From: Chloroflexota bacterium
GTDB lineage: Bacteria; Chloroflexota; Anaerolineae; Promineifilales; Promineifilaceae
Direction: 5' to 3'
Assembly (NCBI GenBank): GCA_008501785.1
Contig: QQUD01000131.1
Span: 1-5,919 of the forward strand
DNA length: 5,919 nucleotides
The notes beneath the pieces were generated by a model. That model saw only the letters and a program-made list of their open reading frames with translations. It ran no database searches and had not been told where the DNA came from. Positions 739 to 1,182 of the stretch are shown piece by piece. Made by a program: the position numbers and the translations under genes. The stretch's first letter is position 1, and every line of letters starts with the position of its first letter.

Positions 739-1182
739 TTACTGCAACGACTGCAAGATTTCATTCATTTCTACAGCTACCGAATCACCTGATAGCGGTC
801 CAACCCAGCGCTTCAATTCGTTGCCATTGCCATCAAGCAGCACATAAGTTGAGCGGCTGCGAATTGCGTACTCTTCAAAATATGGACGCGATTCTGGCTT
901 GTCTACATCTAGTACAAAAAATTCAACTCGACCTGAGAACTGTTCTTCGAGCCTATGCACGATAGGCGCATTCGCTGCTCAAGTCGTTCACCAACTGGCA
1001 AACGCATTTAAGAGCTGTGGTCGTCCCGTGTTTCCAATCAAAGTCAGATCAGATGTATCAATGGTTGGTTCTGCCACGATTTCAGGTACTTTTTCAGCAA
1101 TTGGTGTACCCGCTGGGCTGCAAGCTGCCAGGAACATGAGGATGGTAACGGCCGTTACCAACAATGCAATGATACTTTTCAT
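739..1182 (-). CDS. Thioredoxin-like lipoprotein with UxxU active site (two in-frame TGA as selenocysteine)
   Basis: A single frame of 147 codons plus TAA, interrupted only by TGA at 990-988 (residue 65) and 981-979 (residue 68). Residues 1-21 are a lipoprotein signal: MKS, a hydrophobic core, then LAAC with Cys21 as lipidation site. A Pro/Thr-rich linker leads to a thioredoxin fold: FASW (61-64), TGA-Thr-Thr-TGA, AANAP with Pro73 five residues after the second TGA as in WCGPCKMIAP of E. coli Trx, RLEEQF (77-82), VEFFVLDVD (86-94), TYVLLDGNG (112-120) and RWVGPL (125-130). The TGAs fall exactly on the two catalytic cysteines, and a SECIS-like hairpin follows. I infer selenocysteine at both, giving a low-potential exported dithiol/diselenol reductase. 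The usual cis-Pro position holds Ser111 (TCA). The gene follows the molybdoenzyme by 95 bp on the same strand and likely shares its transcript. A weak AAAGG lies 3 nt before ATG 1182. The alternative, a pseudogene with two nonsense mutations, is much less likely. Confidence 0.85.
951..967 (-). promoter_or_regulatory. Candidate bacterial SECIS stem-loop in the thioredoxin coding region
   Basis: In the mRNA (minus strand) GCCUAU (967-962), loop CGUGC (961-957) and AUAGGC (956-951) form a perfect 6-bp stem with a 5-nt loop. Below it come a C-U mismatch (968/950), a G-C pair (969/949) and a U-G pair (970/948). The loop begins 17 nt after the second UGA and 26 nt after the first, and has G as its second base. 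Bacterial SECIS elements, which recruit SelB with Sec-tRNA, typically have the apical loop about 16-37 nt after the UGA with a G among the first two loop bases; both UGAs satisfy this. Whether one element serves both codons is inference. Confidence 0.7.
979..990 (-). other. Pair of recoded TGA codons (UxxU, thioredoxin active site)
   Basis: Reading on the minus strand: TGG (993-991, Trp64), TGA (990-988), ACG (Thr), ACT (Thr), TGA (981-979), then GCA GCG AAT GCG CCT (AANAP). The spacing reproduces W-C-x-x-C-x4-P of thioredoxins with TGA at each Cys. TGG is used for Trp immediately before, and no other gene in the window has an in-frame TGA, which argues against genome-wide reassignment. Confidence 0.8.
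1144..1159. repeat. Iterated palindrome AACGGCCGTT, copy 3
   Basis: Core at 1147-1156, extended to a perfect 16-bp palindrome GGTAACGGCCGTTACC. It encodes Val-Thr-Ala-Val-Thr in the lipoprotein signal of the thioredoxin-like gene. Confidence 0.8.

Follow-up and report, generated by a model that had tools for sequence, protein, structure and literature searches.

The gene at positions 739–1182 of the window, by which we mean the whole 5,919-nucleotide stretch of DNA analysed, most probably encodes an extracytoplasmic, membrane-anchored UxxU selenoprotein in which a single hairpin serves both UGA codons and which acts as a diselenide-cycling, strongly reducing oxidoreductase. We put the probability of this reading at roughly 0.9. 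That the gene is a bona fide UxxU selenoprotein, as the original prediction had it, is supported and by far the best reading, based on the TGAs kept in relatives, the Cys homologs, the covariation of the hairpin and the Sec machinery of the relatives. We infer Sec insertion, the use of one hairpin for both codons, export and the direction of electron flow. The gene would belong to a conserved family of exported di-Sec thioredoxins in Anaerolineae whose genes are split by ordinary gene calling.

The double in-frame TGA is a real observation, and it was confirmed. What had appeared to be two open reading frames is a single 147-codon frame in which codons 65 and 68 are TGA, and the coordinates predicted for it, with 64 and 79 codons around the TGAs, were correct; the gene lies on the minus strand. 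The features are as follows.

739–1182, minus strand: selenoprotein gene of 147 codons and a TAA stop, with two in-frame TGA codons read as Sec
1180–1182, minus strand: start codon ATG, followed by 64 sense codons before the first TGA
1120–1131, minus strand: lipobox LAAC, residues 18–21, predicted lipoprotein anchor
775–1026, minus strand: thioredoxin domain, residues 53–136 (Pfam Thioredoxin PF00085)
988–990, minus strand: first TGA, Sec65, codon 65 of the frame
979–981, minus strand: second TGA, Sec68, two codons past the first TGA and followed by 79 codons
951–967, minus strand: SECIS-like hairpin, arms 962–967 and 951–956, loop 957–961
850–852, minus strand: Ser111 at the thioredoxin cis-proline position
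739–741, minus strand: stop codon TAA of the selenoprotein gene

W-TGA-T-T-TGA is the thioredoxin active site of this frame. The two TGAs had been placed on the cysteines of a WCxxC motif, and this was seen in alignments with the solved thioredoxins 4ba7 and 2yj7, where both Cys align on the TGAs; in 7c65, only the first Cys does. Upstream of the active site, the expected lipobox was found as LAAC ending at C21, which we take to be a lipobox by the lipobox rule. C21 is the same in 7 of 7 aligned UxxU orthologs. The window genes were said to stop at TAA or TAG, and the three other complete genes do so (molybdopterin oxidoreductase TAG, MutY TAA, TPR TAA).

A full-length query against 5.8 billion proteins gave one match (P0002, 84 aa), which ends exactly at the Trp preceding the first TGA. 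A C-terminal query gave ten proteins of 58–73 aa, among them the window's own piece, P0003. Nine of the ten start seven residues past the second TGA, and P0012 starts later. Standard annotation thus splits the gene, as had been anticipated: all eleven database entries, the window's piece included, are pieces of 58–84 aa.

No relative was found by single-protein scans of genome_contigs and viral_contigs. A profile scan of genome_contigs (84,980 species genomes) gave one locus, L001, on contig JANQSK010001286.1 of an Anaerolineae MAG, with W-TGA-ACG-ACC-TGA. The six best matches in 52 genomes of the family of this MAG all had two TGAs, and the 20 best read-through matches in these genomes (E up to 1.2e-8) contained TGA once or twice but neither TAA nor TAG. 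Since an independent relative carries both TGAs at the same place, and since the 20 matches show TGA without TAA or TAG, the double TGA is more than chance. At E 1e-9, the UxxU profile matched at least 164 of 396 genomes of the class, with at most 8 candidates scored per genome. When 400 genomes were drawn from the phylum, 22 matched at E 1e-15, and G499 alone lay outside the earlier class draw. The profile scan of viral contigs gave two loci, L002 and L003, with the same match coordinates; L002 encodes an ordinary thioredoxin with CGQC. On plasmids, tblastn gave 17 records with 26–37% identity, mostly annotated as TlpA or DsbE type, and blastn against phages gave no match.

Among the best loci, 19 were read as UxxU, including the window. 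The first 18 were the window, L008–L013, L034, L035, L037, L051, L053, L075 and L077–L081, and the nineteenth was L083. L082, with two TGA by search and an ambiguous locus reading, was left unassigned. For the comparison of segments, 17 distinct UxxU, 31 UxxC and 14 CxxC segments were used; as the picking pattern allowed only TGA or Cys codons, these 62 segments say nothing on the absence of TAA and TAG. Repeat loci (L044–L047, L063 and L067) and identical segments (L012 and L022) were left out, and L027–L033, L036, L074, L076 and L083 were read later and stand outside the set. L073b was counted among the TGA/Cys segments and left out of the tree.

The clade of the window is a mixture of UxxU, UxxC and CxxC. 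Cys codons at both positions occur in the same-clade homologs L050 and P0014–P0017. The check proposed with the original prediction, Cys or TGA at 65 and 68 in homologs, accordingly found both kinds aligned there. Two marks of a bacterial selenoprotein gene are present: an in-frame TGA on the Cys of homologs and a TGA kept in independent relatives. As natural relatives carry CxxC, UxxC and UxxU at the same positions within one clade, the cost and benefit of the second Sec can be compared among them.

Moreover, dN/dS (Nei–Gojobori, eight pairs) after the TGAs was 0.03–0.16 in the seven pairs where it was defined, and in the six pairs with both parts defined it was lower after the TGAs (0.03–0.16) than before (0.14–0.30), the values being rough because dS exceeded 1 in several pairs. 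Judged by these ratios, purifying selection acts on the codons that follow the TGAs. A pseudogene or sequencing error, in which two TGAs arose by chance in a broken CxxC thioredoxin gene, would explain a frame interrupted twice in a family that has CxxC homologs. We consider it extremely improbable, as both TGAs recur in other genomes, selection continues past them and P0003 is listed in 6 contigs.

The machinery for Sec insertion was common in the 52 genomes related to L001: tRNA-Sec was matched in 46 (E 1e-7; 44 above the cut-off), SelA in 42, SelB in 44 and SelD in 48. The tRNA-Sec model RF01852 also matched 5 of 14 control genomes, so weak tRNA-Sec matches are untrustworthy alone; a match of 59 bits or more was present in 42 of the 52 relatives. 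Of the 14 controls, E. coli alone had a SelA match, and two each matched SelB and SelD. Nearly all SelD genes of the relatives contain one TGA. Of the six genomes in which UxxU matched best, five had tRNA-Sec, five SelA, four full SelB and all six SelD. In the genome of L001 (G001), there is a tRNA-Sec whose anticodon is tca and, at a contig end, the C-terminal half of SelB. G051, which has a UxxU gene and SelD, gave no tRNA-Sec, SelA or SelB at the thresholds used, possibly due to incompleteness of the genome.

A TGA within an otherwise open gene would also be seen if TGA were reassigned in the lineage, e.g. to Trp or Gly. There is very little to be said for this, given the Cys codons that homologs carry at the two positions, the anticodon of the tRNA-Sec in G001 and the TGA that ends the reading of L013 and five UxxC readings, if these are true ends. 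In the selenoprotein reading, SelB and Sec-tRNA would decode both UGAs, and one downstream SECIS hairpin would direct both.

Counted from the first TGA, columns 24–29 pair with columns 35–40 around a 5-nt loop, and the region is ungapped in the 48 TGA segments. The loop is 26 nt downstream of UGA1 and 17 nt downstream of UGA2. The accessible part of PMC13188914 gives a bSECIS model with a stem of 4–16 bp, a loop of 3–9 nt, a spacing of 16–37 nt, a G as one of the first two bases of the loop and an energy of at most −7.5 kcal/mol. The window hairpin agrees with the geometry given there (a 6-bp stem and a 5-nt loop whose second base is G, at spacings of 26 and 17 nt). What speaks against the hairpin is that the free 49-nt fold of the window is a different structure with −13.2 kcal/mol, while the fold with the hairpin forced has −9.4 and the bare hairpin −5.6 kcal/mol. 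The forced-hairpin fold passed −7.5 kcal/mol in 16 of 17 UxxU and 30 of 31 UxxC segments.

All five inner pairs were complete in 42 of 48 TGA segments but in only 3 of 14 CxxC segments (Fisher p 6e-6, uncorrected for relatedness), and in each of six slid registers they were complete in 0 of 48. The loop GT was found in 48 of 48 TGA segments and also in 10 of 14 CxxC segments. Since CxxC segments keep the five pairs (3 of 14) and the GT (10 of 14), part of the hairpin signal may be codon constraint. In the 48 sequences, 96.5% of cells pair. Five of six pairs change on both sides, which was equalled or exceeded in 18 of 500 shuffles, and both-side changes were found in 44 cells compared to 13.9 ± 2.7 in shuffles (0 of 500), both uncorrected for relatedness. 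For the 17 UxxU alone, 98.0% of cells pair, four of six pairs change on both sides (4 of 500 shuffles) and 13 cells are changed on both sides compared to 4.1 ± 1.7 in shuffles (0 of 500), likewise uncorrected. The number of further pair types did not exceed that in shuffles, either for the 48 sequences or for the 17 UxxU. With RNAalifold, these six pairs were recovered from the UxxU set, and five of the six from the 48 sequences together. Column 28, the first base of a codon, and column 36, the third base of one, covary in all 18 sequences in which they changed, which is more than protein constraint alone would give.

Among the loci read later, a count by eye gave the five pairs in all 17 additional TGA segments and in one of ten additional CxxC loci. 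The extended tally, also by eye and without statistics, came to 59 of 65 for TGA segments and 4 of 24 for CxxC loci. Four CxxC thioredoxins (L087, L089, L090 and L124) have a SECIS-like hairpin with all of its pairs in the usual position; these may be fossils of a change from Sec to Cys. Rfam gave a single weak match on the window, under its cut-off.

The hairpin might suit only one of the two codons. If UGA1 alone were decoded as Sec, UGA2 would be a real stop, the main product would be short and the full-length protein minor. The single-TGA segments point in this direction, as their TGA is the first of the two positions in 31 of 31 and the hairpin spacing may therefore suit UGA1. Nevertheless, we regard this as very unlikely: a stop at UGA2 would cost most of the domain, the codons past it are conserved and under purifying selection, and 17 nt is within the spacing range in the part of PMC13188914 available. 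With one hairpin at two spacings, the handling of two close UGAs by SelB becomes testable.

With Cys put at both TGAs, residues 53–136 matched PF00085 with 33 bits (cut-off 23.5). This match and the thioredoxin fold place the window protein among the thioredoxins. It scored 40.4 bits with the thioredoxin equivalog TIGR01068, below the cut-off of 96.8, and among the NCBIfam matches listed, no cut-off was passed. The product would be an exported lipoprotein, anchored in the membrane with its active site outside the cytoplasm. Sec65 would attack and Sec68 would resolve, and the active site would alternate between a reduced di-selenol and a diselenide form. Diselenide couples are more reducing than disulfides, and the UxxU protein would be a strongly reducing oxidoreductase.

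One thioredoxin feature is absent, and the original prediction had missed this: the cis-proline before the third core strand is replaced by Ser111. In the 26-row clade of the window, this position is S in 15, A in 10 and T in 1, while it is Pro in 40 of 40 other rows. This raises the question of what the proteins of this clade bind. A second UxxU thioredoxin-like group (L034, L035, L037, L077, L078, L080 and L083) was seen in other genomes of the Anaerolineae class; it has NUxPU and similar motifs and keeps the cis-proline in the aligned rows.

The loss of the cis-proline is the argument for a di-selenolate site that mainly binds a metal, a metalloid or a [2Fe-2S] cluster, whether in place of electron exchange or in addition to it. 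In the sections seen of two papers, cis-Pro is said to be more conserved than CxxC and possibly to prevent metal binding (PMC2757866), and P75S/T/A in human TRX1 suffices to admit a [2Fe-2S] cluster (PMC6210436). However, the same sections of the latter report that Cys73 also matters for iron binding in human TRX1, and the residue two before the cis-Pro position in the window protein is S109, not Cys. They also report that plant TRXo bind a cluster and yet keep cis-Pro, so this residue is not decisive for cluster binding. Moreover, loss of cis-Pro could alter substrate binding instead, and the neighbours of the window gene recur in only 1 of 11 loci. Metal binding as the main role is therefore unlikely. 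A more specific form, in which the cis-proline-free di-selenolate is a metal, metalloid or [2Fe-2S] centre with Se as paired ligand, made by one hairpin from two UGAs nine bases apart, is slightly more doubtful still. A diselenide-cycling oxidoreductase remains the preferred reading.

Replacement of both redox residues had been called rare. It is less so: the consulted parts of PMC9312934, PMC13188914 and PMC2398784 describe UxxU for Prx-like PF00578, NF041115, FmdB and a GOS Prx-like family, and UxxU recurs in the relatives here. Thioredoxin PF00085 is inventoried as UxxC, with one Sec, in the part of PMC13188914 seen. We found no description of UxxU thioredoxins of the window's clade in the open-licence PMC literature, and UxxU in this clade is apparently unpublished there, as far as these partly seen sources go.

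The Sec thioredoxins of PF00085 share with the window protein the Pfam domain, the fold and Sec at the first active-site position, but they have one Sec in the inventory as seen, whereas the window protein has two Sec, a lipobox and no cis-proline. The Prx-like thiol:disulfide oxidoreductases of PF00578 (UxxC/UxxU) are, by the parts of the papers seen, also Trx-fold selenoproteins with UxxU, and two CxxC relatives in the database have a precomputed PF00578 besides PF00085. The window protein differs in that it scored 17.0 bits with PF00578, below the cut-off of 26. The Rcas_1661 family NF041057 is likewise a Trx-like selenolipoprotein, but its model has 247 positions and a cut-off of 190 bits; the window protein had no match at E 0.01, and its ortholog L010 reached only 23.3 bits. 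The genome of L001 also holds a member of NF041057 with one TGA (L125, G001:C1287; 293 bits). NF041115 (UxxU, metal-binding) and FmdB (TIGR02605), as described in the excerpts seen, have two Sec in UxxU like the window protein, but at E 0.01 the NCBIfam matches of the seven UxxU orthologs included neither.

The gene order in L001 is that of the window: molybdopterin oxidoreductase, UxxU gene and glycosyltransferase-like gene. We considered whether the gene is functionally linked to the molybdopterin oxidoreductase upstream and rejected this, as that gene recurs in L001 and in 0 of 10 other loci searched. The glycosyltransferase-like neighbour likewise recurs in L001 and in 0 of these 10, and no neighbour common to all ten was seen. 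G049, G050 and G051 share apparent lipoate-ligase and MOSC genes (by eye, without a family search). The neighbour at 1278–2897 is hydrophobic in its N-terminal part and has a molybdopterin domain of the sulfite-oxidase type (PF00174, 129.5 bits); it is below the cut-offs of the SoxC, SorA, SorT and MsrP models.

The palindrome ACGGCCGT occurs in 7 copies in the 5.9 kb of the window (positions 118, 558, 1148, 2386, 2830, 3842 and 5317), compared to 0.07 expected from shuffles. It is present in 49 of 124 loci and looks like a highly iterated palindrome of the lineage.
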